Of a stretch of 64,000 nucleotides of DNA, positions 9,387 through 46,499 are shown piece by piece. The notes beneath the pieces were generated by a model, which was not told where the DNA came from, made no database searches, and worked only from the letters and a program-made list of their open reading frames with translations. Position 1 is the first letter of the stretch, and every line of letters begins with the position of its first letter. The DNA is from Symbiodinium sp. CCMP2592 (taxonomy: Eukaryota > Sar > Dinophyceae > Suessiales > Symbiodiniaceae), in contig CAJNDT010006023.1 of the NCBI GenBank assembly GCA_905221615.1, positions 294,810 through 358,809 of the forward strand. The letters run 5' to 3'. A program made the position numbers and the translations under genes.

Positions 9387-9455
9387 TAGTGCGAGCGACA
9401 TGGATGTGCTTGGCGCCATACTTAGAATCTGGGCACTGTTCGAGAATAGGCGGCA

Positions 9456-19933: not shown

Positions 19934-20119
19934 GCAGCTAATTTTCTGTGTCCGGAGCCTGGCAGAAAACGCACAGCTGTGAACATTGAGGACCGGGACA
20001 GGAAGATGCAGAGGGCTTCTGGGGTGGCAGAGGTGGGGGGGTCAGTCGGGCGGGATGAAAGCAGTGTGGACGAGGAGGTCTGCTCGTAGATGCGATTCGA
20101 ACTATATCCGAACTTCCCA

Positions 20120-27271: not shown

Positions 27272-28587
27272 TCACTTCTCTTTCCTGTGGTTGTCCAGGG
27301 AGTCCACAGCATCTTCCACTGTGTGTCTCACCGCCGAACTCCCCTGGAGGCCATCAAGGATGTAGAGCAGTTGTCGCAGCCACAGGCGTATCATCGCTGC
27401 TTCGGTGGTCATGCGCCCCCGGCTGGCCGCATCTGCGGGGCGCTGCACTGTGCCATGGCTGTCTACGTTCTGCCCACTACTTGCGCTACCTGTACGTTGC
27501 ATGTAGACTACATGGTCGTCTTCTTCTCTGTCGTCCTCGGCACTGTCTGGCTGGTGTCTTCCTGGAGCTGTGGCTGGTGGTGTCGAGGGTGCCGGTGTGG
27601 GCGCCGCTGCCGGTGTGCCCCCCGCTGTGCTTGGGCCTGCTTGTTGTGTTGCGGGTTGTGCCCCCCCAGTGGTTCGCTGCTGGCTCGACGGTGGTTGTGG
27701 CAGGAGGCGGATGGCCATCAGTTCCCACTGCCCTGGTGGAAAGGTGGAGTGCCTTGGCGGGGGGCTGTGCACTATGCCAGCTTGGCGCATAAAGGCCCAG
27801 TCGTAGTAGTACTGGATGGCCGCCTTGGGAACCAGGTTACCTAGTTGCCACACCTTACGTGTGGGGTCCCACTCTAACACATATCCAGTGCCCGGTCGCA
27901 GGTCTGTCCCCGCTGGATCTTGTACTTGGCCTACAGCCGTGACTTGGAGGAGCCAGCGTTGGGGGCGTCCCCCCTGGATATCCCCCCAAGGGAAGAGTGC
28001 GAATGCCGTGTTGACTCCAATGTGGCCTGGTGGGTCTGCGCTGCGCTCTTTCCTCGTCTGGCGTGCTCTCATATAGCCCTTGCCGTGCTGCTGGTCGTAG
28101 TCTGGGGCTAGGGTGGAGCCCACATTGAGCACAATGCCCGCCCACACTCCGTGCGGCAACGCTCTGAGATGGAGTTGTGTGGTGGGTGCCAGTGGCAACT
28201 CCGGGGGAAAGGTCAGCGGCATTTTGCCCCCCCCGTACGCCAGCAACATGGTGTTGAGTGTCCCCTCCCATCGCCTTTTGCTGTCCTCCGGGGTCGCGGC
28301 TGCTGTGGTAGTGCTTCCTCCTCTGCGGCTGCGTGGGTCTTGCGGTGGCTGTGTGGCCGTGCGCTTCTGGTCTGCTTGCGGCTGTCTTGGGGGGATGCTT
28401 CCCCGTGGGAGGTAGCCTCTGTTCAGGAGTTCGGCCCAGTTGGTGTTGTCCCCCGCCGTGCTCGGGCTGGGCCGTGTTGTTGCTGGCCCCAGTCTGGTTC
28501 CCTTGGGCGAAGTGGGTCCCCTTGCTAGGATTCGGGCCCATTCTTCCTCGTCATCTTCTTCGCGGAGCCCCACGTGGTGCGCCACTT
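27272..28587 (-). CDS. E1 ORF, truncated middle part of third-ORF protein
   Basis: About 438 codons open from the recombinase-element border; the apparent ATG at 28594 is created inside that element. It aligns with E2 residues of about 590-1060: VGLREEDDEEEWARIL against VNLAEEDDEAEWEAAI, FPPELPLAPTTQLHLR against MPPELPVAPGTFLHLR, and AALQYYYDWAF-like against AAQQYFADWR. Between these are Pro/Thr/Gly-rich linkers. Conservation of the folded blocks despite diverged linkers suggests that both copies were under protein-level selection. Function unknown. Confidence 0.6.
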
Positions 28588-28687
28588 CGTACACTAGCTA
28601 GCGTATCCTCCCGCCACCTCCCTCTACACCTCCGGGGAGTACGTAGCAAGCCTAGCTTAAGCTAGCTGGCTTCACGCAGTAGCACGG
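28588..28687 (-). repeat. B2 repeat (100 bp)
   Basis: Identical by eye to B1 at 28929-29028. Outer 3' end of the element (sense), starting CGTACACTAGCTAGCG on the plus strand; contains several TAGC words. Confidence 0.9.
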
Positions 28688-28702
28688 GGTGGGTTGGGTG
28701 GG

Positions 28703-28929
28703 CACTCGAAATTTGCCCCCCAATAGCTGGGGGCCTTTCAGCACAATGGCCACGGAGTAGCACTGCTTCACTGGCCATGTGCAGACACTCTAGCAAACAG
28801 ACAAGCTTCGTTCTGTTTAGCTTCAGAGGAAAACCCCTTCGACGTTTTCTAGCGAAACACCTTCGATGTTTCCCAAAGGGATACTGGCGCTAGCATACAC
28901 TGTCGTACCTCGTCCCTCGGCACGAGTGC
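28703..28929 (-). repeat. A2 repeat (227 bp)
   Basis: Near-identical to A1 at 38336-38562 (one visible difference, ACTGG against ACCGG). It abuts B1 with one shared C at 28929, which would be the circle-junction equivalent. Confidence 0.9.
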
Positions 28930-29028
28930 GTACACTAGCTAGCGTATCCTCCCGCCACCTCCCTCTACACCTCCGGGGAGTACGTAGCAAGCCTAGCTTA
29001 AGCTAGCTGGCTTCACGCAGTAGCACGG
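28929..29028 (-). repeat. B1 repeat (100 bp)
   Basis: Inner copy of B2, between the RNase H ORF and A2. Confidence 0.9.
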
Positions 29029-29131
29029 ACAACACGAACTTCTCTCTTTTTAGCGTTGTGGCGAAGTCCCGCGTTAGCCCGGAGAAGAACTCTAGCCTTT
29101 GGCTAGCTAATCTCCTTGCGCAGCCGTAGGG

Positions 29132-29780
29132 CTACCAGGGACCTAGCTTACGGGCCTTCTTAGCGAACCTCGGAGCCTTCGGCTCTCCGGTCCTTTTCCT
29201 CACTCCTAGCTCTTGGAAGTAGCTAGCCGAGTGTTCGAGGAGACGGCCCAGCACGCGCCACTCTAGCTTCTCCCCCTCCAGGTTCACCCTGAAGTCCGGG
29301 GAGAAACTAGCGAAGTTCTCGTTCGTGAGATCGTCCGCTAGCTGGTTCAGATCCCTGCGGATCCACTGTAGCTGAAGCTCACAGTTCTTAGCGGAGAGTT
29401 CCTCTGCTAGCTCCATCAACACCAAGGTCGATGGGAACTTCGTCGTCATAGCCTTCTTCAGTAGCGCTTCGTTGGACTGGTTGTCAGTGTAGCCACGGAT
29501 GGCCACCTTGGAGGTCTTCTTAGCATCCCCTTCCGGGACCCAGAGCCTCACACCAACCAGAGTAGCCAGTAGCTCCAACGCGGCTATGACCTTGTTCGGG
29601 TCTCCTTTAGCGAAGGCCCAGGGGGCCCATTCCTTCTTCACCTCTAGCGAGAACCAGGGACCGTGGCAGCCGTCCACTAGCTCGAGGAAGCCCCCAATCC
29701 AGGCACGTCCATTCTCGGCTTTAGCGTCGGTGTAGAAGGAGAGCGGTGCCGCCCCGTCCAATAGCGAGGCCGGCTTCTGG
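29132..29780 (-). CDS. RNase H domain of the recombinase element
   Basis: Continuation of the polyprotein in another frame (+1 relative to the RT frame). Catalytic pattern of retroelement RNase H: SFYTDAK (Asp), ALELLATLVG (Glu), RGYTDNQSN (Asp), and LNQLADDLTN (closing Asp). About 40 residues follow, ending LGVRKRTGEPKAPRF. It removes the RNA strand of the RNA-DNA hybrid. The frame break at about 29780-29870 (after WERPFLTPGLRPF) either inactivates this copy or needs frameshifting. Codons show the element's GCTA bias, for example gag cta, ttc gct aaa, gag cta ctg gct act. Confidence 0.85.
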
Positions 29781-29831
29781 AGACGCCCCCCGCTTCCAGG
29801 CGGTCTGCTAGCCAGCCACAGAGGACGCGAA

Positions 29832-32309
29832 TCATCGTGGGTAGCGTGAGGAGCCCCAGCTTCCCCTGAACGGCCGAAGACCAGGCGTGAGGAAGGGGCG
29901 CTCCCAGTCTAGCGCCATGGAAGCGAACCCCAGGCGCCCTAGCCCTTGTGCGAAGGGCCGAGCCTCACACTTCCCATCTCGGACTAGCTTCCGTAGCCAT
30001 TCCACTAGCCAGTCGGTTCTCTTCTGAGACAGGCCTAGCCTCCAGGTGGAGTACTCGGTTTCCATGCCTAGCCACTCCACCCGAAATCCCCCCCTCGTCT
30101 TGGCCCACTTGAAGGGGTACCCAAGACTAGCGAGGAAGAGATAGCTTAGCGGGATCCCCATGCGTCCTCTAGCCCCTCGGCCCAAGGACTCGAGGTCGTC
30201 GGCATAGAGAAGCATGTCTAGCGGGAACGATGGCCCTAGCAGGTGGTATGTGAGTCGAAGCCCACACGCCGCTATGCGGGTCCACCAGTAGCTCGCACAT
30301 GATAGCCCGAAGGTCCCCACCAGATTAACGTAAACCGTCTGGCTGTCGGGGTCCCCCGGTGTAGCTTCCTCGGTGTCGATCTGACACCCTAGGTAGCCAT
30401 GCTCTCCTTCGGCATGTTTGTAGCGTCGGTGAGCTTTAGCGATGTCGCCCACCACGGAGAAGGCCACCTCGTTAGCGTCGATGTGCTCCCGAAGTAGCTG
30501 CTTCTTCTCCCTAGCTCCTGGGGCCCGGATCTTGTCCCTGCACTTAATGCGGTGGTTGACCCGGACCCCGTGGGTAGCATCGTGGATCATCCTCTTCTTT
30601 CCACTAGCTTCGTCCTCGACGATGACAGCTAGCGCGGCGATGGCTCGATGCTCGCCATAGCGGGCTTTGAACTCGCCTAGCGTCATCTTGACCATGAGGC
30701 CCTCCGCCACGTCCTCTTCGAACTTCTCCCTAGCGAACTCACGGTACTCCTCCACCGAGGAGTAGTTCGGGACCCAGGCTAGCGCCGCCTCCCAAGGGGC
30801 GTTCTCCAAGGGCCACTTTAGCTGTTCCTCGAAGACGTGGGGAGTGCGTGGTAGCGGGTCCCTCACCCCCACCGGTAGCCCCTCCTCGGCCTGGAGGAGG
30901 AAGTCCCTGTCGGGATCGCCGGCCGCGGTCAGTAGCGCCCGGATGAGGCGGAGGTATAGCGGCTGCCCCGGGGCCACCTTTAGCAGCTCCGGGTCTCCCA
31001 GGTCATTAGCTTCCAGCCACTCTTTCCAGATCAAGCGTAGCTGCTCCTGGAGATCTTCGGAGCTAGCTAGGGCACAGCCCGTGGCCCCCCCGGCAGCCAT
31101 GCGGAAGGCTTCCTTCTCTAGCTCCGCTTCCGAACCTATCTTAGCGAGGATCACCTCCATCATTTTCTCCCGTAGCCAGTCCCAGTTGGGACCTTCGGCG
31201 TAGCTGCGGGTAGCGTGGGGCCAGCGTCCTGGGGAGCAGAAACCCCCACCATCATGGTAGCTCTTGTTGCCACCTAGCTGTTGGCAGGTCCTTGGTGGCC
31301 CTGAACCCCCTAGCACTCGCGGACCCTCCGGCTCACAGGTCGGGAAGGTCTCGGGTAGCGGGCACTCCGGCCTAGCGCCACCCCCCTCCCCCTGGGCAGC
31401 GGTAGCAGGGTGCTGGCAGGAGTCCAGAATCAGGGTAGCCAGCCACTGGCACATCAACTTCTCGGAACCTGAGGTCTTGAAGGGGCCCTTAGCGGGGCGC
31501 TTGAACATGCGGCCCAAGGTAGCAGCAGAAGGCAGCGGTCCTGTGTAGCAGCCCTTTTTGTCATAGCATGGCAGGCCTTCGTGTACGAAGTCTGGCATAG
31601 CAGAAGAGCATTTTAGCAGCAGCCGCGTCGGCTTAGCGTATGGCGTACCAAAACTAGCCTGGTGGAAGGCCACGGTCCGTAGCCCCTTTTGCAGAAGGTC
31701 GGCTAGCGGCGGCCACTGCCACATAGAAGCCGGCCGTGTCCCTTGATGCGGGCCCTTAGCGAGGGCCCCAAGGTCCTCGGGCTGCTCCATGGCAAGGAAG
31801 GTAGCTGCACCGTCGGCCACGAGGGTAGCGACCGCAAAGCTGAAATCCGCAAAAATGTTGCCCAGGATAGCGCGGTCTCGCTCTGCAGGTGTTAGCGTTT
31901 CCAGACCTCGGGGAAACTCGTAGCTGCGCACCGGGCGGGGCCCTTGAAAGTTAGCCCAAGGCGCTCTGGAGAAGCTAGCGCACGGCGGGGAGAGCACCAC
32001 CGCATCGAACTCCTTGCTAGCGATCCGGTCCAGGTAGCTTTGCCGAATCTTGGGCTGACTGAGGTCGTATTTAGCGTGCCGTAGCAGGTCGACACACTCG
32101 ACCCTCACGTCTTTGTCGAACTCTGCTGCTAGCTGGTGCAAACACTGCGCCACATCTAGCCGGCGCGAGGTACCCGAGAAGAGGTAGAGCACCCGTAGCG
32201 GCTTTGTGTGCGTAGCGGCCGGCTTCGCTGGCGTAGCAGCCAGTGGGTCTGGCGTAGCTTCCCCCCCCGGGGGGGTCACAGGCACTGAGGGCGCAGCCGC
32301 CGTAGCGGG
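29832..32309 (-). CDS. Cytosine-methyltransferase-like / reverse transcriptase polyprotein
   Basis: ORF of about 825 codons, open from the UGA at 32310. Residues about 30-230: class I methyltransferase fold resembling C5-cytosine enzymes, with LYLFSGTSRR (SAM-binding strand), LSPPCASFS (Pro-Cys catalytic-type motif) and MEQPEDL in place of the usual ENV. Then a linker and RT: VIVEDEASGKKRMIHDAT, VVGDIAKAHRRY (motif A Asp), GTFGLSCASYWW (motif B region), LLYADDLESL (YADD, motif C) and FKWAKTRGG with VEWLGM (motifs D-E). The RT type matches DIRS-like elements, which usually carry an adenine-methylase-like domain after RT; here the domain precedes RT and is of the cytosine type. Capture of cytosine methyltransferases by dinoflagellate retrotransposons has been published. 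Activity of this copy is not assured. Confidence 0.85.
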   Translation of the reverse strand, partial: PATAAAPSVPVTPPGGEATPDPLAATPAKPAATHTKPLRVLYLFSGTSRRLDVAQCLHQLAAEFDKDVRVECVDLLRHAKYDLSQPKIRQSYLDRIASKEFDAVVLSPPCASFSRAPWANFQGPRPVRSYEFPRGLETLTPAERDRAILGNIFADFSFAVATLVADGAATFLAMEQPEDLGALAKGPHQGTRPASMWQWPPLADLLQKGLRTVAFHQASFGTPYAKPTRLLLKCSSAMPDFVHEGLPCYDKKGCYTGPLPSAATLGRMFKRPAKGPFKTSGSEKLMCQWLATLILDSCQHPATAAQGEGGGARPECPLPETFPTCEPEGPRVLGGSGPPRTCQQLGGNKSYHDGGGFCSPGRWPHATRSYAEGPNWDWLREKMMEVILAKIGSEAELEKEAFRMAAGGATGCALASSEDLQEQLRLIWKEWLEANDLGDPELLKVAPGQPLYLRLIRALLTAAGDPDRDFLLQAEEGLPVGVRDPLPRTPHVFEEQLKWPLENAPWEAALAWVPNYSSVEEYREFAREKFEEDVAEGLMVKMTLGEFKARYGEHRAIAALAVIVEDEASGKKRMIHDATHGVRVNHRIKCRDKIRAPGAREKKQLLREHIDANEVAFSVVGDIAKAHRRYKHAEGEHGYLGCQIDTEEATPGDPDSQTVYVNLVGTFGLSCASYWWTRIAACGLRLTYHLLGPSFPLDMLLYADDLESLGRGARGRMGIPLSYLFLASLGYPFKWAKTRGGFRVEWLGMETEYSTWRLGLSQKRTDWLVEWLRKLVRDGKCEARPFAQGLGRLGFASMALDWERPFLTPGLRPFRGSWGSSRYPR

Positions 32310-32312
32310 TCA
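32310..32312 (-). promoter_or_regulatory. In-frame UGA between zinc-finger ORF and pol
   Basis: The zinc-finger ORF stops at UGA (context AAC UGA CCC) and the same frame continues without stop into the methyltransferase/RT ORF. The layout is that of a readthrough Gag-Pol junction; no start codon is required for pol. Confidence 0.45.
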
Positions 32313-32612
32313 GTTGGAGGGCTTATCCTCCTTAGCGGCCTCCGTTTGCTTGGTGGGGCACTTCGTAGCTGGGTGCTTGCCGAAGCATAGCGAGCAAACG
32401 TGCTCGAAATGGCACTTGTTGCCATTCTTGCATCCCTTGGCATTGTAGCGGAAGCAGATGGGCTTCCCCTGCGGGGTGCGATCGGCACCCAGGCGCTTCT
32501 TAGCTTTGCCCCCCTTGGGGGGGGCGTCTTTGCCTTTGCCCTTCCCCTTGGGGGTCTTAGCAGGCCGCTCCTCCGTCCAGGTCCAGGGCTGCGGCCGCTT
32601 AGCATGGAGGGC
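32310..32612 (-). CDS. Nucleocapsid-like CCCH finger plus zinc knuckle
   Basis: About 100 codons: a Lys/Gly-rich basic stretch (TPKGKGKGKDAPP), then ICFRYNAKGCKNGNKCHFEH (CCCH finger, C-x7-C-x5-C-x3-H) and CSLCFGKHPATKC (C-x2-C-x3-H-x4-C, one residue shorter than the canonical retroviral knuckle). Such fingers bind the element RNA in Gag. It overlaps the preceding Gag-like ORF by about 13 nt in the +1 frame, and the overlap contains CTAAGC; a +1 frameshift there would fuse them. No own ATG at the ORF start, which supports fusion by frameshift or an indel in this copy. Confidence 0.75.
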   Translation of the reverse strand, partial: ALHAKRPQPWTWTEERPAKTPKGKGKGKDAPPKGGKAKKRLGADRTPQGKPICFRYNAKGCKNGNKCHFEHVCSLCFGKHPATKCPTKQTEAAKEDKPSN

Positions 32613-33528
32613 TTAGCGGTGTAGTGAAGTGCCTCTCCTTCACGCTAGCGTCCTTGTAGGCAAGGACTAGCGCAGCGCCGAAGGAATAGCCGGCCGTGGC
32701 CATGACCTTGTACGCGTGCTTCCTGATAGCGTGCTCGTAGCTGAGCACCAAGGTCCACGGGGGCACTAGCGACCCCGAGTCGGCACTGGACCGGAGACCA
32801 TAGCAATAGTCTCCGAGAAGATAGTCTTTGTAGCGCTCGAAGAGGGCCATAGTGACATCCTGTAGCTCCTCCCGGTTGGGGTGCCTTAGCTGCATCATGA
32901 TTAGCGTGTTCTGGAGCACCGTGAGCCGCAGCCGTAGCTGCTCCGGCCCAGAAGGCATGGGGGCCCTAGCTCCCCCCTTCTTCATGGATAGCGTGCCATT
33001 GCCATTCCAGACGGGCAGTAGCGTGTCGGGGTCCCACTCGTCCCGGCTAATGACCTCGGTTAGCGGCTCGGCCCGGAACTCGCCAGATTCGAGCTCGCCT
33101 AGCTTCTTCTCAAGGTACTCTTTAGCGGGGGTTTGCTTGTCCTCCAGGTCTCCGAACTTAGCGGTGAAGGCCTGGCGCATGGCCATATAGTCCGTAGCGG
33201 GGATGGGCTTTGCCCAGTCCCGGACCTCGCTTGTAGCCTCCGCCTCCGCTTGCCGCTCGGAGCGGGAGGTAGCGGTCCTCCATGCGATGGTGACCCCCGC
33301 GGCCTGAGCGCGGCTAGCGAGCGAGGTGGACGGCTCAATTGCAAAGCTGTCCTTTAGCATCTTCTTGAGGTCCGCCTCATCTGTTGCCGAGGCTGCAAAT
33401 TTAGCGACGGTATCAATACCGTTGGAAAAGAGCTCGGATTGGATAGCATCCGAGACTTTATGTTGCACTAGCAGGAATCGAAGCTCGCTGCTTCCGAGGG
33501 CTAGCTTCTTCGCCAGAGCCTCTGCCAT
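32599..33528 (-). CDS. Gag-like protein 2 of the recombinase element
   Basis: About 309 codons, ATG at 33528 (MAEALAKKLALGSSE). Mostly helical: FLLVQHKVSDAIQSELF, then a central region with WNGNGTLSMKKGG, a helix-rich part RLRLTVLQNTLIMMQL, and the end PPWTLVLSYEHAIRKHAYKV followed by KERHFTTPL. I recall related VLSYE...KERYFTTPL proteins as abundant in dinoflagellate genomes, in keeping with a mobile-element Gag. It lies directly upstream of the zinc-knuckle ORF with which it is probably expressed as one protein. The exact structural role is inferred from position only. Confidence 0.6.
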   Translation of the reverse strand: MAEALAKKLALGSSELRFLLVQHKVSDAIQSELFSNGIDTVAKFAASATDEADLKKMLKDSFAIEPSTSLASRAQAAGVTIAWRTATSRSERQAEAEATSEVRDWAKPIPATDYMAMRQAFTAKFGDLEDKQTPAKEYLEKKLGELESGEFRAEPLTEVISRDEWDPDTLLPVWNGNGTLSMKKGGARAPMPSGPEQLRLRLTVLQNTLIMMQLRHPNREELQDVTMALFERYKDYLLGDYCYGLRSSADSGSLVPPWTLVLSYEHAIRKHAYKVMATAGYSFGAALVLAYKDASVKERHFTTPLSPPC

Positions 33529-33540
33529 GGTAGCAGGCAC

Positions 33541-33951
33541 GAGGGGCCCTACGCCACCTTAGGGAAAAACTTCAAGGGAAAAATTCCTGCTAGCACATTG
33601 GGGAAAAGCTCCTAGCGTGAGAGTGTGTCAGGGAGTGCCAGTCGATAGCTTTCGCTAAAAGGGGTCGCTGCAGCAAAGAGCGGCCCTAGCAGCCCCACCG
33701 ACCCCGGCCCCTCCGCCCCCAAAACTCTCGACACTCTCTCGCTCTAGCCTTCCCTTCTTTCTGGCTGCCGACATGTGTGTAGCATGACTGTAGCGTGCAC
33801 ACACTGGCAACTGTAGCGAGGGACGGCCTGAACTTTTGCTGCAGCTAGCGGTCGGCAGCAGAGGGCGCTGCAAGAGTAGCCGCATGCAAAGCAAAAGTAG
33901 CGGGTGCAAGTAGCGAGGCCGGGGCCTGTAGCGAGGCAGGGGCTGCCCGTC
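33541..33951 (-). other. Spacer between Gag-like ORFs
   Basis: No convincing ORF. Still carries TAGC at 33583, 33613, 33645, 33687, 33745, 33780, 33791, 33814 and onward, showing that the motif is not confined to coding sequence. Confidence 0.8.
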
Positions 33952-35592
33952 TTAGCGGCCGCCCCAGTCCTCCCCGCGGCTCCACTGCTTGCACCCATCA
34001 CAACAGTGAGTAGCGTGGTCGTCGCACTTAAACCACATCCGCCTGTTACAGGCTCTTAGCGAACAGACCTCGCAGGTCGTAGCGCACCTGAAAATACAGG
34101 CGTTAGCGTCCCAGTGGCCTAGGGAGTAGCGGCAGCGTCCAGGCTGGTACTGCGTATAGCAGCTTGGTAGCAGCATGGCCAGCAACTCGCTAGCGCGCTC
34201 CCCCTGGGGGGAGGATGGGTGTAGCGACACATAAGTGCCACGTCTTCCCTCCCTAGCGAGTAGAGGTGCTCTCCATGGTGGATAGCACTCTTCAGTAGCG
34301 TGCCATCGGCACCCTTGCCGTAGCGGGGGAGGCCCCTTGCCTTTCCCCTTCTCATGGCGCTGGTCCCAGGAACCCAGCGGCCACAGATCGCGGTCAATAG
34401 CGGACCACGAGAGCTCGAGGTACCAGTAGCCCTCCCCCTTGGGGAGACTGTTAGCGTGGGCCCCCGGGGGGGGTCTGGCTCGTCCCTTTAGCGCCACGCT
34501 CACTGGCGTGCCCTTAGCGAAGCGGACGTTAGCGGGCATGCCCCCCGCCTGCTGGATAGCGCGGTCCTGCTGGAGCTCGCGGCGTAGCAACTCCAGGTAG
34601 CGGTCGGGATCCTCGAATAGCGTGCCCCACGTGTAGTCGAACACATTGATTGTAGCGGGCGGCTGGCCCTTGCCCTCGGCCGGCTTGCCCTTAGCGCCCT
34701 TGCCTCGGCCCCGGCTCGGGCTGGTAGCGCGAGGGGGCGAGGGGCTAGCGGCCCTTGGCCCAATCTCCATGAACCTCTTAGCGGCCGACTCTGCCGGCGT
34801 AGGGTCCATGTTAGCCGGTGCCGTGGTGTCGGCGGCAGTAGCGGCCACCGGTGCCGGGTCGACACTGCTGGTAGCGGTGGCGTCTCTGGTAGCGGCCTCC
34901 TCTGCGGCCTGCAGGGAGGCTTTGCTAGCGGCCACCGCCTGCTGGTACTCCAGCTCGGCGGCCTGCTCCTCCTTAGCGAGCCGCTCCGCGGCCTCCTTCC
35001 GCTTTTGCTCTAGCGCGGCCGCTGCGACCCTCTGGTCGTGCTCGGCCTTTTTCTCTAGCGCCAGCTTAGCGGCTGCGGCCTCCGCGTCCTTGCGGGCCTT
35101 GGCCTTCGCAGCGCTAGCGGCCGCATTGGCAGCGGCGAGCTGGTCTAGCTGGGCCTTTGCTGCTGCAGCGGCGGCCTCTGTAGCTGCGAACCTCTGCGTG
35201 AGGCCCGCGGACATAGCTTCGTCCAGGCTAGCGATGTCCTCCTGGGACAGGTCGGCCCAGCTAGTAGCGGATAGAACTCGCCGCTCCATCAGGTTAGCGG
35301 GGCTCTGTTGGCGTAGCCCGGCCCCTATCCACTTCCGTGGCGGGGACTCTTTGTCTAGCGTCTCGATCGCCTCTTGGGACATAGCGATCAGCTCCTGTAG
35401 CAGAGGCTTGTCGAGGTAGCGTGGCAGGCCCTCGGCGCACTCCGACGGCCTAAACCGTAGCGCCTTCCGCAGACCGCGGAGGGTCTCCGGGAGGTAATCT
35501 CCACTAGCGGGCTGCTCTGCCGTAGCTGGGCGACCTGGTGGCCCTGCGCCCTTGGGCGTTGTAGCGCTGGCATCCTTGCCTTTTCCTCCCAT
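33952..35592 (-). CDS. Gag-like protein 1: coiled coil and Cys-rich C-terminus
   Basis: About 546 codons, ATG at 35592 (MGGKGKDASAT). Residues about 40-130 are globular (LRGLRKALRFRPSECAEGLP, SATSWADLSQEDIASLDE). About 140-240 form a long Ala/Glu/Lys coiled coil. Then a Pro/Ala/Ser-rich basic linker (PSPPRATSPSRGRGKGAKG), a folded part (TINVFDYTWGTLFEDPDRYL, GYWYLELSWSAIDRDLWPLG) and a Cys/His-rich end with CATTCEVCSLRACNRR and CDDHATHCCDGC, probably binding zinc. Coiled coil plus basic linker plus zinc end suggests an RNA-binding structural protein. The high Ala content partly follows from the GCTA/GCG bias of the element. Confidence 0.6.
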   Translation of the reverse strand: MGGKGKDASATTPKGAGPPGRPATAEQPASGDYLPETLRGLRKALRFRPSECAEGLPRYLDKPLLQELIAMSQEAIETLDKESPPRKWIGAGLRQQSPANLMERRVLSATSWADLSQEDIASLDEAMSAGLTQRFAATEAAAAAAKAQLDQLAAANAAASAAKAKARKDAEAAAAKLALEKKAEHDQRVAAAALEQKRKEAAERLAKEEQAAELEYQQAVAASKASLQAAEEAATRDATATSSVDPAPVAATAADTTAPANMDPTPAESAAKRFMEIGPRAASPSPPRATSPSRGRGKGAKGKPAEGKGQPPATINVFDYTWGTLFEDPDRYLELLRRELQQDRAIQQAGGMPANVRFAKGTPVSVALKGRARPPPGAHANSLPKGEGYWYLELSWSAIDRDLWPLGSWDQRHEKGKGKGPPPLRQGCRWHATEECYPPWRAPLLAREGRRGTYVSLHPSSPQGERASELLAMLLPSCYTQYQPGRCRYSLGHWDANACIFRCATTCEVCSLRACNRRMWFKCDDHATHCCDGCKQWSRGEDWGGR

Positions 35593-35619
35593 AGCGGCGC
35601 CCAAGGCACGGATCAGGTG

Positions 35620-36007
35620 AAACGGCTAAAGAAAATCTAGCTACCCCAGGGTAGCGAAGCCGAAGGCTACCCGTGGGAGGAGGTTTAGCACAGTCACTGG
35701 CTCCTGCGCCTAGCTCCTTTGTAGCCCTGTTGCCTTGCGGGTGCAAGGCCCGCACGTTTCGTAGCGCCTTCCTCCGCTCCTTAGCTCCTTCCTGCAAGAC
35801 GGACCTAGCGCAAGCACTGGCTCCTCACCTAGCTCCTGTGTTCCCTGGGTGGCCAGAAGAGGGGTCGCCCGGCCCCGGTTTCCTAGCGCCTGCCTTCGCT
35901 CCTTGCTCCTCCTGCAGACACTAGCGGAACACGAAAGCACAACACAAGCAACACAGCAAGTGACATGTAGCAAGAACGTGGTTCCCTCCACTCTCTTCTT
36001 TCTCCCC

Positions 36008-36071
<64 letters not shown>

Positions 36072-36224
36072 AGCACACCCCCTTCAAAAACTAGCGGCGT
36101 TTCGCAAGGGAGGGAAGAGAGAGAGAGAGAGGGAGACAGAGGGGAAAGGAAAAGAGGGTGCCGACCTAGCAGCCTTTCTAGCCTCAGTGCGAGTGCGAGT
36201 TCGGCGGCTTAGCACGCCCTGCGC
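35620..36224 (-). other. Spacer with repeated Ser/Leu words and poly(C) tract
   Basis: Two diverged copies of CACTGGCTCCT...CTAGCTCCT at about 35694-35800 and 35816-35915 form a short direct repeat. Then the C62 run and a (GAGA)n stretch at 36117-36135. TAGC words continue through the whole spacer except the homopolymer. No ORF. Confidence 0.65.
36009..36070. repeat. 62-nt uninterrupted C run (poly-G on the sense strand)
   Basis: Homopolymer of 62 C, preceded by TCTCCCCT. Length is probably approximate because such runs are error-prone in sequencing. Confidence 0.85.
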
Positions 36225-37390
36225 TCAAGGATGACTGCTAGCGGACCCCGGTGCGTGATCCTCTGGGGCCTCGTCATCTTCCGAGTTAGCGAGCGATCCT
36301 TCGCTAGCGTCTCCTTCGGAGATAGCCCCCTGGTTCGGCCAGCATAGCTTGCACACATGTGTGTACTCATGCGGCTCCGGAACCGAATCAAAAACCCTAG
36401 CGTTGCGGAAAGCACGTCGCTTCCCCATCCAGCAACCTGTAGCGCCCGCTTTGTGCAGGCGGAAAATGGCACCTGGGACCTCTACGATTACATAGCTGCC
36501 CTGGCTGCGGTCGGGAACCCTGGCCTGCTTCTTAGCGGGCCGTTCCACGACCTCTGCAGAGGCCTCGGAGCTACTCCCGGCCACTAGCGGTTCCACGGGC
36601 TCGTCCGGTCCCTCGGGAACCTCTAGCCCTTCCGCCTCGGTCGGGACTCCTAGCAGGCCCTCCATCCAGATCTTCCGCAGCCTCGCCGCCATGTGGATAG
36701 CCTGGCTGTGGGTTAGCTTGGCCCTCTCTTCCAGCCAGGGCTCGAGGTCCGCGGCGATTTCACGCTCGTCGAGCGCCTCGTAGCGGTCGTCCCCCCTAGC
36801 TGTCTTAGCGAAGAGAGCTTGGAGACGGGACACCCTACCCGCAAAGGATCTAGCGTACACGTCGGACCCCTCGGGTTTCCAACGCCCTAGCAGATCCTTG
36901 TCTTGCGGGGGGATCTCCTTTAGCGCCAAACCTGTTGGTAGCACCGAGCGCTCACTGTGCTCCGTCCAATAGCCCTGGACCTCCCGTGGGTAGCCCATGA
37001 TAGCCAGCAGCCCCGCGGTTGCCACCATAGCGTCCGCATAGGTAGCCATCTTCTTCTCCAGTTGCCCCGCCCGGCCCAGCCGCGGCATGAGGTAATCCCG
37101 GGCGTAGTTAGCGTGGGCCTTGAGGAGATCGAAGCCGGTCACCAGCCAGCTCTTAGCGACCAGAAAGGCGTGCTCGGACACCACGACCGGTAGCTCCTTG
37201 ACCCTTCTCGTAGCGCCGGAAGTCTTGGTCTTCCGGAGGATGGTGGTGAGTCGCCCCTCCACCATCACTAGCTCGGCCGGCAGGATAGCCTGAAGGTCCG
37301 ACCATCTTAGCGTGGCCCAGACCTTGACCAACTTAGCCCAGGCCCAGATCCGCCAGCCTGCGGCCCTACGGGATAGCGGGGCGCTCTCTT
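36225..37390 (-). CDS. Tyrosine recombinase, catalytic domain and C-terminal extension
   Basis: Second frame of the recombinase. Catalytic residues of the tyrosine recombinase fold can be picked out: Arg I in LRWSDLQAI (about 37300), a beta-hairpin Lys region RKTKTSGATRR, HxxR in TEHSERSVLP (about 36955), Trp in LLGRWKPEG and the nucleophile Tyr in SDVYARSF (about 36855). The enzyme would integrate the circular DNA copy at short identity. A C-terminal extension of about 190 residues ends in a Cys/His-bearing segment (GCWMGKRRAFRNARVF, EYTHVCKLCWP). The first part of the protein is in another frame, so a shift near 37380 must be crossed; APLSRRAAGWRIWAWAK is the continuous read on this side. 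Confidence 0.85.
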
Positions 37391-38285
37391 GATCAAGGGG
37401 GCCCCCTCTGCTAGCTGCTGCTCCACAATGCTGTCCTTAGCGGCCCAGACCAGGCGACCAAAGGTGGTCCTTAGCTCCACCGGGAAATCGGCCACCTTCT
37501 CCATCCAGGAGATAGCCTTGAGAATAGCTTCTGGGACCGAACGGCCGCAGGGTTCATCACTCCTAGCGAGGAGGTAATCCACCAGGTCCGCGGCGGTGCC
37601 CGGGGGCGGCCTGAGCTTAGCTGCGTGGAGCCATTGGCGCCACTGCCTGTAGTAGCTCAGGTAGCGCTTCAAAGTCGACGCCCGGGTCTTCCCCGGAAGC
37701 AACATAGCTGCCCTCGCGGGGTCCAGACTCCCGTGCAGCTTAGCGAGAACCGGGGCATGTATCTCTAGCAGCTCTTCACGGAGCTTCCTTGCCCAAACCT
37801 CTAGCAGTCGCTCCTCTCTAGCCGCACTGATCGTGCTGGGCTGTAGCGTCTTCCGATTCCGCTCCCCGGGGGGAGGTCTTAGCGGCGCAGGTGGCTGATG
37901 CACCGCGTCTTCGACCTCTTCCCTTGGAGCAGGTAGCGGTGGCATCCGGGCTCTCCAGGTGATATCGTCCTGGAAGTAGCCGTGTACCCTCTGATAGACA
38001 GTAGCTTCCTGCCGCGCTTCTTGCAGCCAACAGTAGACACCATCCCATAGCCACGGCTGGTATGGAATACCTAGCTCTCGAGCTAGCTGTTTGGCGACAT
38101 CCTCCGCGTCGTCCAGATCCACCACTGCTAGCTCCAAGACCCCAAACCCTTGGCTGGAGAACCTCGGTAGGACACGAAGCACTTAGCGGGGGCGGGGAAT
38201 CCCCAACCACAGTAGCGCAGTCGACGGCCGTAGCGGCTGCGCCATCTGGCGTGGTCGGCGCCAGGGTAGCGTCGCTGTCCGACAT
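37307..38285 (-). CDS. Tyrosine recombinase, N-terminal (core-binding) part
   Basis: ATG at 38285 opens MSDSDATLAPTTPDG in one frame; after a one-base shift near 38190 the read continues as VLELAVVDLDDAEDVAKQ, then a helical region TRASTLKRYLSYYRQWRQWL and DLVDYLLARSDEPCG, typical of the SAM-like core-binding domain in front of recombinase catalytic domains. It is first in the sense RNA, right after A1. Two indels in this gene make this copy probably inactive unless they are sequencing errors; TAGC words occur on both sides of each break. Confidence 0.75.
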
Positions 38286-38335
38286 GGCAGCGCACCCAAA
38301 GCAGGGCTAATTAGCCCTGTTCCCCTTCCTACCCC

Positions 38336-38562
38336 CACTCGAAATTTGCCCCCCAATAGCTGGGGGCCTTTCAGCACAATGGCCACGGAGTAGCACTGCT
38401 TCACCGGCCATGTGCAGACACTCTAGCAAACAGACAAGCTTCGTTCTGTTTAGCTTCAGAGGAAAACCCCTTCGACGTTTTCTAGCGAAACACCTTCGAT
38501 GTTTCCCAAAGGGATACTGGCGCTAGCATACACTGTCGTACCTCGTCCCTCGGCACGAGTGC
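38336..38562 (-). repeat. A1 repeat (227 bp)
   Basis: 5' terminal repeat of the element in sense orientation; partner of A2 at 28703-28929. Ends at GCACTCGTGCC on the sense strand against the (GA)n tail of E2. Confidence 0.9.
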
Positions 38563-38566
38563 TTTC

Positions 38567-38642
<76 letters not shown>

Positions 38643-38700
38643 CACTTCACTTCACTGCACTTCACTGCACTGCACTTCACTTCACTTCACTTCTTCAACT
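38563..38700. repeat. (GA)n / (GTGAA)n tail of E2
   Basis: Plus strand: TTTCCATT, (CT)n to about 38637, TTCCATT, then CACTT/CACTG repeats to 38692. Same composition as the tail of E1. Confidence 0.85.
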
Positions 38701-39183: not shown

Positions 39184-42100
39184 CTATGTCCTGGGCTGAA
39201 GGCTCCTCACTGGAAAGCTCTCAGCGTCACGCTCCGCGGAGGACGGCACGTCGATGGCAGCCATGGACCCCCGGAGGTGCCAAAAGGCCGGGGGCTTAGG
39301 CTTCTCATCGCCCCCCCCGGAAGCATCTCCAGTCGTGTTTGCGTCCAGTTGGGTGGCCCCCGTCATCGTGGCTGGCACTGCTTCAGCGGCATTGGCTTCG
39401 GGTCCCCCTGCGCTGGCCCCCATAGTGGCTGCCGCCGGCAGGGCGTCCCCTGCCGGTTCATCGGGCACCAGGTGGTGCGAAGCCGGAGGGTGTGGCGCCT
39501 CTTCGTCAACGAGCTCCCCCACATCGTCGACGGCAACATGGCCCCCCGGCAGCGGCAGCGTGACATTGAACAAGCTTGGAGGGGTCTCCGCTTCTTGTGT
39601 TTCTGCATTCCCCTGGCTATCCACCAACAGGGTGGAGCCCTCACGGCTCTGCACCCATGCCATGAGTGACGCCACCAGTCTGCGGGCCTGGTCCGCGTCA
39701 TTGTCGGCGAGGAACGGCAAGAGGCCCCCCAGCTCTTTGAGGTACTGTCGTGCTCTCCAAACATCAGGCATGCCCCCAAAGGTTTCATCGGACCCCGCTG
39801 CCATGGCTAAGACATCACTTCTGTGTGCTTCCCCCGGGACATGTCGCAGTTCCCAAGAGAGTGCGTCCCCCTCCTCAAGCAGCGACGCGACAGTCCACAG
39901 CCAGTTTGCAGTGAGCCAGTCACGGTCTCCTGCTAGCACTTTGTCCCGGGCGCTGGTCATGGCCTTCACTGCAAGGTATGCCCCCTCTCGAGCTTCTAGG
40001 GCTTGTAGCCCCCCTTGGTCGTGGATCTCGGCTTCGAGGCGGCGGATCCCCTGGCTCAACATGTCAATGCGCACAGCCATGTCCTCGGCGAGGTCGATGT
40101 CGCTGAGCGCGGTGGGAAGTCTGTCTGCAACCCCCCGGAGTAGTCGGGCCACTTCAGAAAACTCCGTAGTGTCGCGGCGCCGCTTGCGCCCCCACAGGGG
40201 GTTCCCCATGCCTCGAAGACCAAGTGGGTCAAGGGCTGCAAGCAGATCTTCAACCTGCTGTTGCAGGCTTGCGGGGGCTCCTCTGGCCACAACGGCTGCT
40301 AGTCGTCGGAGGCAGCGTCGAACCATGGCAATGGCGAGGCAGCCCTCCGGGATGGCAGGCTCGTTGCTGCTACTGGCTTGCCCCCTGTTGGTCTGCATAA
40401 GGGCTGCGTCGTCGGCGTCCGGTTCTCCCCCCTGTGGGGGGTCCTCTTCTGAGTCGTCGTCCTGGTTGCCTTGGTCTCGGCGTGGCATCAGGCGGAGGCC
40501 AAGGTGCTCCCAGTTGCTGGCGTCTGGGAACCCCGTGCTCGGCAAGCGTTCGGCCCCCCTGCCAATGGCCGACTCCCGCCGCCAATCAGCGAAATATTGC
40601 TGTGCGGCAGGGCGAACGAGCGGCTTTCGTTCCCAGGCTTTCTCCCCCTTTCGCTGCCAGAGTAGGTAGGCTTCCCCCGACGACAGCCTGATGGGGTTGA
40701 TCTGCGACCACCCCGGGGCCGTGTGCTCAACTGCAGTCACAAAGAGCAGCCACCTCGAAGGAGCCCCGCTAGGGGGACCAAGAGGGAAAAGGACCATGGC
40801 AGTTCCGGGTCCTAGGTGACTGTCCCCCGTTGCGGGGTCCCGTGCTTGCTGTCTCGCTCTGGCAAAAGGCCGGCTTTGTCCTGAAAAGTACGCTGGTCCT
40901 CGCCGATCTTGCTCGTGGAAAACGACTGCGGCCCATGCTCCCCCGTGCCCCAGGTAACGAAGGTGCAAGAAGGTGCCAGGTGCAACGGGCAGTTCTGGAG
41001 GCATGTTGCGGGGGGTTCTGCCCCCTCCGAGACTGAGCAGCCACACGTTCAAGTGCCCTTCAACTCTCTTTGCGTCCCCCACTGCTTCAGTGCTTGATCC
41101 CGCAGCTCTCCGGCGGCGTGGCTCCTCCGGCGGTTGCTGTTTGGCCCCCGCAGGTACAGCGGGTGGTCGTCGAGGTGGCTGCGGCGGTGGCTGTGTGTGT
41201 GCGTTAGTTGCTGCTGCTGCTGCCCCTTGCGGTGGGTGCGCGCTGGACGAGGCCCCCGTGTGGCTGCCTCCGGGGGCCGTGTCCCCTGTGCTGGCTGTAC
41301 CTCCTCCTCGGGGCTCCAGGTGTTTGTTGAGGAGTTGGGCAAAGCGTGCCATGTCTTCTGCGTGCTGCTGTGGGTTGTGGGCGCCGCTCCCCCCACCACC
41401 ATGTTGTCTGTTAGCCTGTGCTCTGGCTTCATGGATGGCAGCTTCCCACTCGGCCTCGTCGTCTTCTTCTGCGAGGTTAACCCACCAGCCCACTTGGCGC
41501 CAGGTTTTGCCAGTGGGTTTTCGCATGCCCTTTATTTCAAAGATTGTTTGCACTGCAGCTTTGTAGCGTTTGCCCCGCATTCTATGTTCTCCCCCCCCCT
41601 CGTGTTTGCGGCCTCCCCCAGTGCTGGTGTCCCCTCCTTGCCAGTGCCACGGCGCGTCGGTGCGTGGTGTGGGTGATGCTGTGTTGCGCCAGGCCGGGTC
41701 AGCGGCACATGCCGTGGGTTCGGCTGGGGTGGTTGGTGGCTCTGTGGGGTCGGGCAACACGGCTTCTCCCTGCGCTGCTGTGGGCGGGTCTGGGTCTGCT
41801 GGTGGCGGCTGCCATTGCTCCTCTGGCGGGCTGATGCCTTCCGCCGCTGCTGTGGTCTCCTCCTCCTCCGGCTGGCTGCGGGTGTTTGCTGCCCCCTCGG
41901 TTGGAGTGCTTGGCTGGGGGGTGCTGTCGGCGAGTGTGGCTGACGGTGGTGGCCTGGCAGCTGTTGGCTCAGGCTGGGGCGGCGGTTGCTGTGGCTGCAG
42001 GTCTCTCCGGCGCCAACGGGGTTTGCATGGAATGCAGGGTGGCACCACGCCTGCACGCTGCGGCTCCGCTTGTTGTGCTGCTGCGCATGGTTGGTTGGGG

Positions 42101-43221
42101 TCGCGGGGCTCGCTGGCTCTGTCTTCCTCGCCCTCGTCACTGACCTCAGGTGAGGCCTTGCTCGACCAGCTGCCCGGTTCACTGTGGGAGGCTGTGGGGC
42201 TACTGTCGGCTGATGTGGATGGTTCCGGGCTTGGAGGTTCTCCCCACTCTGGCTGCAGCTGTGGTGCTCTGGTGGGACGGGCGGGTGCCCTTGGTGTGCC
42301 GGGCTCCCCTCCCTGTGGCTGTAGTGGATTGCTGCTGGTTGGGCCGGCGGGTTGTTGGATCGGATGCAGTGTGTAGCCGTATTGGTTGGTGTTGCCTGGC
42401 CAGTATGCTCCTGGTGGGTATCCAGTGGCTGGGTATCCCATGGCTGTGCCCATGGCTGCAAGGGTTCGTGGGGAGAGGGCATACCCCGGTAGGCTTTGGT
42501 ATGCTATGCCCGCTGCCTGCAGAATGCTTTGGTAGTGGAGGTGCAGCGCCAGGAGCTGGTCGGCCATCTGTTGTGTGCCAGTTGGTGGTGGTAGTGGTGG
42601 GCAGTGCTGCTGCTGCTGTGGTGCTTGGGGTGGGGCCGCCGTGGAGCTGGAGCTGGCCCCCCCCGTCGTCGGGTGCTCCGGTGTGTCAGTGTTCCATGGG
42701 TCTGTGTCGGGGTCATAGGGGGCCAGGTAATACCCGTGGGCTCTGGCTGCTCGTTGGGCCGGTGTGTAGTAAGCGGTGGCTGCTGTGGCTGCAGTTGCTT
42801 GAGGGGGAAGCGGAGCCATGTGCGTGGGTCTCCCAGTGGGCTGGTGATGGGCCGGGTGGTGTTCGCCCTGTTGGGCTGCCTGCCACGGCTGGCCTGTGGT
42901 CCACGCTGCTGCTGTAGGTGTGGCTCGCTGAACTGGTTGTGCCTGCGGTGGCTGTTGCGGCGGTTGCTGTTGCGGCGGGCCGCTTCCCCCCGATCCCTGG
43001 ATGGGTGCCCCCTCTGCTGCTGTAGTTTCCAGGTGCTGCTCAGGCTGTGCTGGTCCGTCGTCTGGGCTGTCGTCGTCCTGGAGCGGCATGGGCTCGTCGG
43101 GTCCCACGGCTGCTTCCGCAGTGGGCGGGGCCGGCGGCTGTCCCAGGCGCACACAGGCCAAAACTGCCCCCCACAGCATCAGGCCGTAGGTCAGGGCTAT
43201 CATGTAGCGAATTGGGTTCAT
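39184..43221 (-). CDS. E2 third ORF: membrane-anchored low-complexity protein, unknown
   Basis: About 1345 codons from ATG 43221; an upstream in-frame start at 43269 is possible. MNPIRYMIALTYGLMLWGAV continues as a 20-residue hydrophobic segment (signal peptide or anchor). Residues to about 560 are Pro/Gln/Ala/Thr-rich low complexity. From about 560 a series of folded blocks begins: GKTWRQVGWWVNLAEEDD (about 590), RNMPPELPVAPGTFLHLRYL (about 770), AMVLFPLGPPSGAP and SRWLLFVTAVE (about 840), AAQQYFADWR (about 900), GRKRRRDTTEFSEVARLL (about 1020), then a helical end with LGGLLPFLADND (about 1185). These blocks recur in E1 in the same order, so they are a conserved protein family. LINEs normally end after RT; a large membrane-type third ORF is unusual. 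Function not recognised. Confidence 0.65.
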   Translation of the reverse strand: MNPIRYMIALTYGLMLWGAVLACVRLGQPPAPPTAEAAVGPDEPMPLQDDDSPDDGPAQPEQHLETTAAEGAPIQGSGGSGPPQQQPPQQPPQAQPVQRATPTAAAWTTGQPWQAAQQGEHHPAHHQPTGRPTHMAPLPPQATAATAATAYYTPAQRAARAHGYYLAPYDPDTDPWNTDTPEHPTTGGASSSSTAAPPQAPQQQQHCPPLPPPTGTQQMADQLLALHLHYQSILQAAGIAYQSLPGYALSPRTLAAMGTAMGYPATGYPPGAYWPGNTNQYGYTLHPIQQPAGPTSSNPLQPQGGEPGTPRAPARPTRAPQLQPEWGEPPSPEPSTSADSSPTASHSEPGSWSSKASPEVSDEGEEDRASEPRDPNQPCAAAQQAEPQRAGVVPPCIPCKPRWRRRDLQPQQPPPQPEPTAARPPPSATLADSTPQPSTPTEGAANTRSQPEEEETTAAAEGISPPEEQWQPPPADPDPPTAAQGEAVLPDPTEPPTTPAEPTACAADPAWRNTASPTPRTDAPWHWQGGDTSTGGGRKHEGGGEHRMRGKRYKAAVQTIFEIKGMRKPTGKTWRQVGWWVNLAEEDDEAEWEAAIHEARAQANRQHGGGGSGAHNPQQHAEDMARFAQLLNKHLEPRGGGTASTGDTAPGGSHTGASSSAHPPQGAAAAATNAHTQPPPQPPRRPPAVPAGAKQQPPEEPRRRRAAGSSTEAVGDAKRVEGHLNVWLLSLGGGRTPRNMPPELPVAPGTFLHLRYLGHGGAWAAVVFHEQDRRGPAYFSGQSRPFARARQQARDPATGDSHLGPGTAMVLFPLGPPSGAPSRWLLFVTAVEHTAPGWSQINPIRLSSGEAYLLWQRKGEKAWERKPLVRPAAQQYFADWRRESAIGRGAERLPSTGFPDASNWEHLGLRLMPRRDQGNQDDDSEEDPPQGGEPDADDAALMQTNRGQASSSNEPAIPEGCLAIAMVRRCLRRLAAVVARGAPASLQQQVEDLLAALDPLGLRGMGNPLWGRKRRRDTTEFSEVARLLRGVADRLPTALSDIDLAEDMAVRIDMLSQGIRRLEAEIHDQGGLQALEAREGAYLAVKAMTSARDKVLAGDRDWLTANWLWTVASLLEEGDALSWELRHVPGEAHRSDVLAMAAGSDETFGGMPDVWRARQYLKELGGLLPFLADNDADQARRLVASLMAWVQSREGSTLLVDSQGNAETQEAETPPSLFNVTLPLPGGHVAVDDVGELVDEEAPHPPASHHLVPDEPAGDALPAAATMGASAGGPEANAAEAVPATMTGATQLDANTTGDASGGGDEKPKPPAFWHLRGSMAAIDVPSSAERDAESFPVRSLQPRT

Positions 43222-43521
43222 GGCGGCAACGCGGCTGCCAGGTGCTGGCCGGCTAACTGCTGTAAGCATGCGGCGGCTGTCGGATGGGTCGTTTCACTCC
43301 ATCACGGTCCCTTCCTGTGGTTCAAGCTGTGCACATCACTGCATACACTGTGGCTGGTGTGCCCTGTCAGGTCGTCAACTGCGAAAACTGCATGTGAAAC
43401 GTGAAACTCTATGCTCTCTCTCTTCTGTCTGTTTTTTGCTCTTCGGTGGTGTCGTTGGTGGCGTGGCGTTGTGGAATGTGGAGTGCCCCCGTCGTGGGGG
43501 CATGGCTGTGCGCTGCTCCCC

Positions 43522-44703
43522 CTATGCTGTCAGCTGAGGCTTCATTTGCTGGGGGGGTCGCTCTGCCTGCCCCCTGTTGGGTGCAATGTTGTTGAGACTT
43601 CCTTGCTTGCCCGAGGCCCAGGGCACATCGTAGCGCCCCACAAAGTCGTGCAGAAGCCCGTTCCATGCTGCCCTGTCCTGTGCTGTTTGCATCCAGGCTA
43701 GACCCCCTACGGCTACGATCTGCCGTTCAGGGTCCGAGTCCGGGTTGAACCTGTGCTTGTGTCGCTGGCCCCCCCAGCTGGGCGGGATCCTTTGTTCTCG
43801 CCTCCACCACTGCAGGTTTTTCCAGCTGAGCATGGCTGCCCCTCCTTCGGTGGATCGGGCCATGTGCCCGTAGAGCCCCCATGTTTGCCCGAGCAGGAAC
43901 GTGCTCCAGCGGGGCTCCCCGGACTGGTGAAGTTGGACTCGGGCTCGCCGGAGGGTGCGGTTGTTCCAATCCACCCACGATTCCCCCGGGTGCCGGGATT
44001 CCCGCATCATGGCCCGGATGTGCCGGAGCTGCGTGCTGTTGACTGCTTTGTGCAGGGTTTCGACGATGGGCCAGGACTGGGATGCCCAAAGGGCGGCGTT
44101 CCGCACCATGGTTGTATGCAGCTTGATGCGGCCTTTGAGCGGCGTCGGCGCGCAGAGGAGCTTGCTATGCTTGTGGAAGGCCTTGCGGGCTCGCTCGTTC
44201 ATGGCCGCCGTGATGGCCGCCACTGGTTCGACGAAGGTGAGTGGTGATCCTAAGGCTGTGATAACTGCGCCAAAGGGTTGGCATGCGACCTCTTGCCCCC
44301 CTATCCGGAAGGTGCCCCCCCCTTCGGGTTCACTGTAGAGGATGGCGGTTTTGCCGGGGTGGATGGAGAGGCCGTCCTTGGCCAGCCTGACTTCGAGCTC
44401 GGTGAGGGTGCGCTGCAAATGGTCATGATCATGACTCCAGAGATAGGTGTCATCCATAAACGCCCCCCCAGATTGGGGGGGGTTGGGTCCCCCCACTGGC
44501 GGCAGGTGTCTGGCCGTGCGTGTAAGAACCTCGTCCAACGCCGTGGCAATGATGGCCGCAAATAGCACGGGACTATCAGGGGATCCTTGGCGCACACCGT
44601 TGCTTTGCGGGATGCTGGTGATGGTGTCGCCGATAGCGATCCGTAGTTCCCGGGCTTCAAGGAGGCCAAGCCATGCGCGTGCCTCCCAGGGGGAGCCCCC
44701 CAT
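43522..44703 (-). CDS. E2 reverse transcriptase, C-terminal part
   Basis: Third frame of the RT. Contains SNGVRQGSPDSPVLFAAII (motif B), GGAFMDDTYLW (FMDD, intact motif C), KTAILYSEPEGGG (motif D region), a thumb and a helical tail (WASQSWPIVETLHKAVN, LQWWRREQR). No RNase H follows; the C-terminus ends at SLNNIAPNRGQ...MKPQL. It joins the preceding part at about 44703. RT of the jockey/CR1-like FMDD type, clearly different from the plus-strand LINE at 1651. Confidence 0.85.
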   Translation of the reverse strand: MGGSPWEARAWLGLLEARELRIAIGDTITSIPQSNGVRQGSPDSPVLFAAIIATALDEVLTRTARHLPPVGGPNPPQSGGAFMDDTYLWSHDHDHLQRTLTELEVRLAKDGLSIHPGKTAILYSEPEGGGTFRIGGQEVACQPFGAVITALGSPLTFVEPVAAITAAMNERARKAFHKHSKLLCAPTPLKGRIKLHTTMVRNAALWASQSWPIVETLHKAVNSTQLRHIRAMMRESRHPGESWVDWNNRTLRRARVQLHQSGEPRWSTFLLGQTWGLYGHMARSTEGGAAMLSWKNLQWWRREQRIPPSWGGQRHKHRFNPDSDPERQIVAVGGLAWMQTAQDRAAWNGLLHDFVGRYDVPWASGKQGSLNNIAPNRGQAERPPQQMKPQLTA

Positions 44704-46487: not shown

Positions 46488-46499
46488 CTGCTTAGTGAT

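Follow-up and report, generated by a model that had tools for sequence, protein, structure and literature searches.

The stretch of Symbiodinium sp. CCMP2592 DNA analysed here, hereafter the window, is 64,000 nucleotides (nt) long (assembly GCA_905221615.1, contig CAJNDT010006023.1, positions 294,810 to 358,809) and contains a retrotransposon of 9975 nt on its minus strand (28588-38562). The sense strand of this element bears a selected, oriented coverage code: one GCTA, best as C-GCTA, stands every ~16-50 nt from end to end. Every open reading frame (ORF) of the element lies on the minus strand, and the relevant word is therefore GCTA in the RNA sense, which appears as TAGC on the plus strand. 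Word counts give 315 copies where 34.5 are predicted from composition (over 28579-38562), a 9.1-fold excess. The array is strong enough to set codon choice and to shift residue pairs in the encoded proteins.

An earlier note, made from the letters alone, had described plus-strand TAGC planted across the whole retrotransposon, and its counts hold up: 34 copies in 34001-35000, as claimed, and 2 in 39241-40240, outside the element, where it gave 2-3. The array stops at the element ends, as that note also said. The 2-kb flanks hold 4 copies on the 28588 side and 2 on the 38562 side; within the element, the first GCTA is preceded by 35 nt at the 5' end and the final one starts 11 nt before the 3' end. 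The reverse orientation is indeed rare and shows no enrichment, with 46 TAGC in the sense strand and 33 occurrences of GCTAGC, which forces one. Coding and non-coding parts are covered alike (29.6-32.9 GCTA per kb in three coding stretches, 26.7-39.8 in the four non-coding stretches counted), which bears out the statement that ORFs, spacers and repeats all carry the word. All three codon phases are used as well, but unevenly (119, 98 and 35, six ORF frames summed with overlaps counted twice). The neighbouring retroelement region at 39184-47756 has GCTA at 0.53 of expectation.

Does codon choice account for the word? The control proposed in the earlier note was run separately on the six ORF frames, with synonymous codons shuffled 500 times per ORF, and the observed GCTA count was never reached in any of them. 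In the order of that run, the first three ORFs have 24, 80 and 30 copies against 10.6 ± 2.3, 33.3 ± 4.0 and 13.6 ± 2.3 after shuffling, and the last three have 54, 36 and 25 against 23.3 ± 3.5, 15.1 ± 2.7 and 11.6 ± 2.3. Drawing codons by GC3 alone gives one third to two fifths of these shuffled values. The leucine codon CTA is nearly confined to positions after G; in the Pol frame it is used for 35 of 46 leucines after G versus 2 of 45 elsewhere, and 33 of the 39 alanines before a codon starting with A are GCT. The proteins are shifted as well, with 43 A-[IMTNKSR] pairs against 25.6 expected and 13 [SRGC]-Y pairs against 5.3.

The word is also spaced. The gaps average 31.6 nt with a coefficient of variation (CV) of 0.46, against 0.885 ± 0.049 for 2000 random placements of an equal number, and gaps under 10 nt number 10 where 60 are expected. 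The gap range claimed earlier is borne out by 275 of 314 gaps at 10-50 nt and 7 above 60 nt. The widest gap (124 nt) lies across a G run; the element contains a run of 67 C on the plus strand (G in sense) at 36004-36070. Of 337 synonymous opportunities to write GCTA in the ORFs, 249 are used, and the farther away the nearest other GCTA lies, the larger is the share in use: 0.17 (<8 nt), 0.43, 0.57, 0.87, 0.88, 0.95, 0.98 and 1.0 (>40 nt), so that 98-100% are used beyond 30 nt (Mann-Whitney p 4e-26). This test was made on stop-to-stop frames, which take in short and maybe untranslated stretches and count two frame overlaps twice. In 1000 permutations of the used opportunities the CV was 0.69 ± 0.03 (minimum 0.596), with 25.9 gaps above 60 nt (minimum 17) and 52.5 below 12 nt (minimum 40), against the observed 0.46, 7 and 21. 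A word is dispensable where another lies near and almost obligatory where none does; selection therefore acts on coverage. Non-coding parts can be as regular, with a CV of 0.23 at the 5' end and 0.45 in 33559-33951. Among the periods tried only 3 nt is prominent, as expected from codons, and helical phasing at 10-11 nt is absent; nothing thus suggests that the word is read from one side of a DNA helix. Nine other stretches, in the window or in the distant locus L001 described below, contain no comparably even words outside the tandem array at 7001-9500, where the even spacing is due to the array itself.

All four bases of the word count, since the twelve one-mismatch words stand at 0.05-1.12 of expectation against 9.14 for GCTA. 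Position -1 has a preference: at 119 alanine-type sites it is C in 0.64 and G in 0.15 of cases, versus 0.24 and 0.43 at 198 other alanine codons. In the non-coding parts T seldom follows the word directly (0.05, n=56). Of the 417 TA steps of the element 315, about three quarters, sit in GCTA, and TA outside GCTA is at 0.28 of expectation inside the element versus 0.50 outside it, perhaps because decoy sites or RNA cleavage are avoided. GTTA occurs once in the element.

GCTA in two of its three phases forces certain residue pairs, and relatives can therefore be tested from protein alone, by comparing how often A-[IMTNKSR] and [SRGC]-Y occur in forward and in reversed order. Searching proteins with the Pol frame brought up 134 relatives, which are named as Symbiodinium, Durusdinium and Polarella. 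The 120 of them that were used are not mutually independent, and P0103-P0105 resemble isoforms of one gene. The forward/reversed ratio is 1.81 in the 11 proteins of at least 70% identity and 1.60 in the 19 at 59.6-69.7%, and then falls to 1.05, 1.02, 0.95 and 1.03 in four lower bands (5, 56, 18 and 11 proteins). The footprint is thus present in 29 of the 30 relatives at or above about 60% identity and absent on average in the 90 at or below 53%. Pairs that are new relative to the window protein behave in the same way (1.77 and 1.40 in the two closest bands, 0.90-1.04 below), and among new pairs the forward ones are more numerous than the reversed in 26 of the 30 close relatives versus 27 of the 90 others. 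An excess at newly formed pairs means that sites are re-created and not merely inherited. In a blind ranking of all 256 tetramers GCTA leads in 13 of 121 proteins, the window protein included, and the next commonest leader in 6. In the sister groups no other tetramer footprint rose above the noise that comes with 256 words; in one group of five GATA ranked first (27.4 vs 12.2), too weakly to be used. Scans of viral and genome contigs for the DNA of relatives gave no close relative and one distant locus, L001, a 3.4-kb contig (3403 nt) filed under a Planctomycetota metagenome-assembled genome but probably a eukaryotic contaminant, with a Pol relative at 1-2454 (32% identity). It has no array: GCTA occurs 6 times in its 3403 nt, and the tetramer most enriched in it, CTAC (19), has uneven spacing.

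The shuffles, the spacing, the exactness of the word and the restriction of the footprint to close relatives together make the array a clade-specific, selected, oriented coverage signal. The earlier proposal of a dense, selected nucleic-acid signal that is not a protein signal is supported by the failed codon shuffles, the spacing rule and the relatives' footprints at new positions. It is hardly conceivable that mutation, codon bias or an assembly artefact made the array. This much suits such an origin: the rest of the window has few GCTA or CTA-containing words, so that a local bias would stand out. Yet synonymous shuffles do not reach the counts, word use varies with distance in a way that the permutations miss, one-mismatch words are not enriched, and the word is made by differing codon choices (GCT-A, G-CTA, GC-TA). 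The footprint also appears in proteins of other records. Moreover, the copies of the element's two repeats are near-identical (A1/A2 226 of 227, B1/B2 100 of 100), from which it follows that the words are older than the insertion. Mutation or codon bias was rejected on the shuffles, permutations and repeat identity taken together.

What could read such a word? The candidates lie partly in the element itself, whose features, from its 5' to its 3' end, are the following.

38336-38562, minus strand: terminal repeat A1, 227 nt, forming the 5' end of the element.
37307-38182, minus strand: ORF of 291 amino acids (aa), first part of the putative tyrosine recombinase region by position alone, with no Pfam match.
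36225-37436, minus strand: ORF of 403 aa, candidate tyrosine recombinase, with an H-x-x-R ... W ... Y stretch found by eye.
33952-35625, minus strand: alanine-rich ORF of 557 aa with a C-terminal part that is Cys/His-rich by eye and no Pfam match.
32599-33558, minus strand: ORF of 319 aa, Gag-like by position.
32313-32597, minus strand: CCCH zinc finger, C-x7-C-x5-C-x3-H, followed by C-x2-C-x3-H-x4-C, in a frame different from that of the Gag-like ORF.
29832-32309, minus strand: Pol ORF of 825 aa, a methyltransferase-like part with an SPPC motif (assigned by motif) and then a reverse transcriptase (assigned by fold).
29132-29908, minus strand: RNase H-like ORF of 258 aa with a weak RVT_3 match, overlapping Pol in another frame.
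28929-29028, minus strand: repeat B1, 100 nt, identical to B2 and sharing one G with A2.
28703-28929, minus strand: repeat A2, a near-identical copy of A1.
28588-28687, minus strand: repeat B2, the identical copy of B1, forming the 3' end of the element.

The split direct repeats thus stand in the DIRS order A-coding-B-A-B. The reverse transcriptase is supported by its predicted fold and is the only domain confirmed in this way; the layout matches that published for SymbioDIRS-Dnmt3. The H-x-x-R ... W ... Y stretch of the 403-aa ORF is what we take to be a tyrosine recombinase motif; Pfam and PDB sequences gave it no support, and its predicted structure has a mean pLDDT of 37. The methyltransferase-like part has no Pfam match; strands and helices alternate in its model (residues 38-233), a part that the fold comparison rows barely cover. 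The RVT_3 match of the 258-aa ORF has an E value of 0.084 and 13.2 bits against a cut-off of 21.6. The 557-aa ORF may encode a second protein of the element that binds nucleic acid. Runs of (TC)n and (TTCAC)n at 38570-38693 adjoin the element's 5' end.

The methyltransferase-like part brings up the idea of self-methylation, in which the words would be CpG targets (CGCTA) of the element's own enzyme. The preference for C at -1 would suit it, and de novo CG methylation by related DNMT retrotransposons is described in PMC5890265. The counts argue otherwise, and we regard the idea as very improbable. The word was said to be mostly TAGCG on the plus strand, yet this form makes up 149 of 315 copies and the other 166 have no CpG. 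The gap CV of the CGCTA subset (0.761) is that of random subsets of GCTA sites (0.788 ± 0.062); CpG is therefore not the counted unit, and CGCTA was set aside as the spaced unit. CpG is no richer in the element than outside it (0.78 vs 0.76 of expectation), and the SPPC stretch is present in footprint-negative relatives too. Of the three readers that the earlier note had put forward, the Gag zinc finger remains the best candidate, and the CpG or methylation mark is disfavoured by these counts and spacings.

Our tentative reading is that the element's own Gag-like protein, with its CCCH zinc finger, docks on the words in single-stranded RNA. Each GCUA of the genomic RNA would be a single-stranded docking site for one Gag-like protein copy, bound through its single CCCH finger, and the ~30-nt pitch would be the distance between neighbours that multimerising Gag needs. 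With many identical sites, Gag could pick its own RNA and coat it end to end, leaving aside the RNA of the host and of sister retrotransposons; the coat would serve packaging, protection and reverse transcription. We favour a single-stranded target because the word counts in one orientation only and shows no helical phasing. Fingers of the CCCH type, spaced C-x7/8-C-x5-C-x3-H as is the finger of the element, recognise single-stranded RNA at sites some four bases long. This reading habit, a best PDB sequence match to tristetraprolin (weak, E 0.97) and the way cysteine spacing goes with the footprint point to the finger as a candidate reader. The spacing between second and third Cys is 5 in the window and in the three footprint-positive relatives in which a finger was found, versus 4 in the two footprint-negative ones; the finger of P0080 is spaced 8-4-3, and the relative P0020 carries a precomputed PF00642. 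The exact word with its -1 preference resembles a short site whose bases are read one by one, and confinement of the footprint to one clade would be expected if a recognition code and its reader change jointly. Predicted site accessibility, run on four of the six ORF frames, agrees in the Gag-like frame, where 1 of 60 context shuffles reached the observed value.

Several results weigh against docking by Gag. In the three other frames 6, 10 and 34 of 60 shuffles reach the observed accessibility; the finger comparison comprises six sequences in total, and the finger's Pfam profile scores lie under their cut-offs (16.3 vs 24.6 bits and 16.4 vs 30 bits). Coverage is uneven in the spacer 35626-36224, which holds a long G run (CV 0.74), and at the 3' end (CV 0.59). 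The close relative P0059 has no footprint (14 forward, 16 reversed pairs), and 4 of 30 close relatives show no excess of new sites, among them P0006 (20/22), P0044 (13/14) and P0083 (13/14). Finally, the sequence pattern would look no different if an RNA-binding factor of the host were the reader.

Such a host factor would read GCUA as a distributed signal for export, stability, splicing suppression or silencing escape that demands a minimum density throughout the transcript. Orientation, coverage and the lack of helical phasing suit any reader of single-stranded RNA, and the shortage of UA outside GCUA (0.28 vs 0.50) could reflect RNA stability. A host-wide signal should serve other elements too, yet the neighbour at 39184-47756 is depleted of the word, and most sister DIRS-type relatives lack the footprint, though not all share the host. 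On balance we consider a host factor doubtful.

A reader at the DNA or cDNA level seems unlikely; it might take the form of a DNA-binding protein with polarity, of a modified T within TA steps, or of words that second-strand synthesis uses for priming or cutting. The cDNA of a retrotransposon passes through a single-stranded stage, and this and the concentration of TA steps in GCTA suit such a reader. Early work put 5-hydroxymethyluracil of a dinoflagellate mainly in TA and TC contexts, as cited in PMC11071213, but in the same account the modification of Breviolum minutum has no sequence preference. TA is palindromic while the word stands in one orientation only, and the 10-nt phasing is missing.

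A broader proposition, which we hold to be possible, also has the word read on RNA by the element's own single finger. The lineage would write a second, whole-length code in which a four-base word, oriented and at fixed pitch, takes precedence over codon choice and alters protein composition, and the RNA would be a ruler-like scaffold for that finger. Sister lineages would use other words or none, and the word would be the password of the lineage.

Other features of the window lie apart from the array. The neighbour region 39184-47756 has minus-strand ORFs, an RVT_1 match (E 3.5e-12 in 43522-44787) and no GCTA array. A plus-strand ORF of 1706 aa at 1513-6633 matches PF00075 (RNase H) with an E value of 1.3e-4, under the curated cut-off, and a minus-strand ORF at 18407-20041 has a lycopene cyclase-like FAD-binding match (PF05834, 24.1 bits vs a cut-off of 23.4). 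At 7418-9384 lies an array of 73-76-nt units, each an imperfect palindrome and some inverted, which is unrelated to the element and causes a small rise of GCTA/TAGC there.

How does the array compare with known systems? None of this kind was described in the openly licensed literature searched (titles and abstract starts, with limited terms), and a spaced four-base word over coding and non-coding parts is a form of constraint for which we could find no counterpart there. The A/T runs of the PATC signal in nematode germline genes are phased at ~10 bp. Like the array, PATC is a dense distributed signal over genes that is independent of the protein code; unlike PATC, the word is oriented, contains G and C and lacks 10-nt phasing. 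The element shares with SymbioDIRS-Dnmt3 of Symbiodinium the order A-coding-B-A-B, a methyltransferase-like part and a reverse transcriptase in one Pol ORF and a separate putative recombinase ORF, while the main text of that paper contains no mention of GCTA, tetranucleotides, k-mers, codon usage, Gag or nucleocapsid (PMC5890265).

How does a retrotransposon Gag tell its own RNA from other RNA of the cell? Ty1 and the element have this problem in common. Ty1 Gag, in the account of PMC8396678, binds many kinds of RNA with little specificity and without preferring any base, and its discrimination of its own RNA is described there as not fully explained. In the element this question can be put to a direct test, since the word, the base favoured before it and the rule of its spacing have been established. 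If the word is instead read by a host factor or at the DNA level, the array would point to an undescribed reader in dinoflagellates. There is also a likeness to the dispersed packaging signals of RNA viruses and hepatitis B virus, many genome-wide sites whose shared short motif is read by the coat protein (PMC6281560). The element likewise has many genome-wide sites sharing one short motif. Presentation of the word in stem-loops was not found in the accessibility predictions, no stem-loop search having been made. The packaging signals are stem-loops that vary around their motif, in the description of PMC6281560, whereas the word of the element is exact, far denser (~32 per kb) and even. If Gag reads the words as RNA, the array would be an extreme variant of the dispersed packaging signal.

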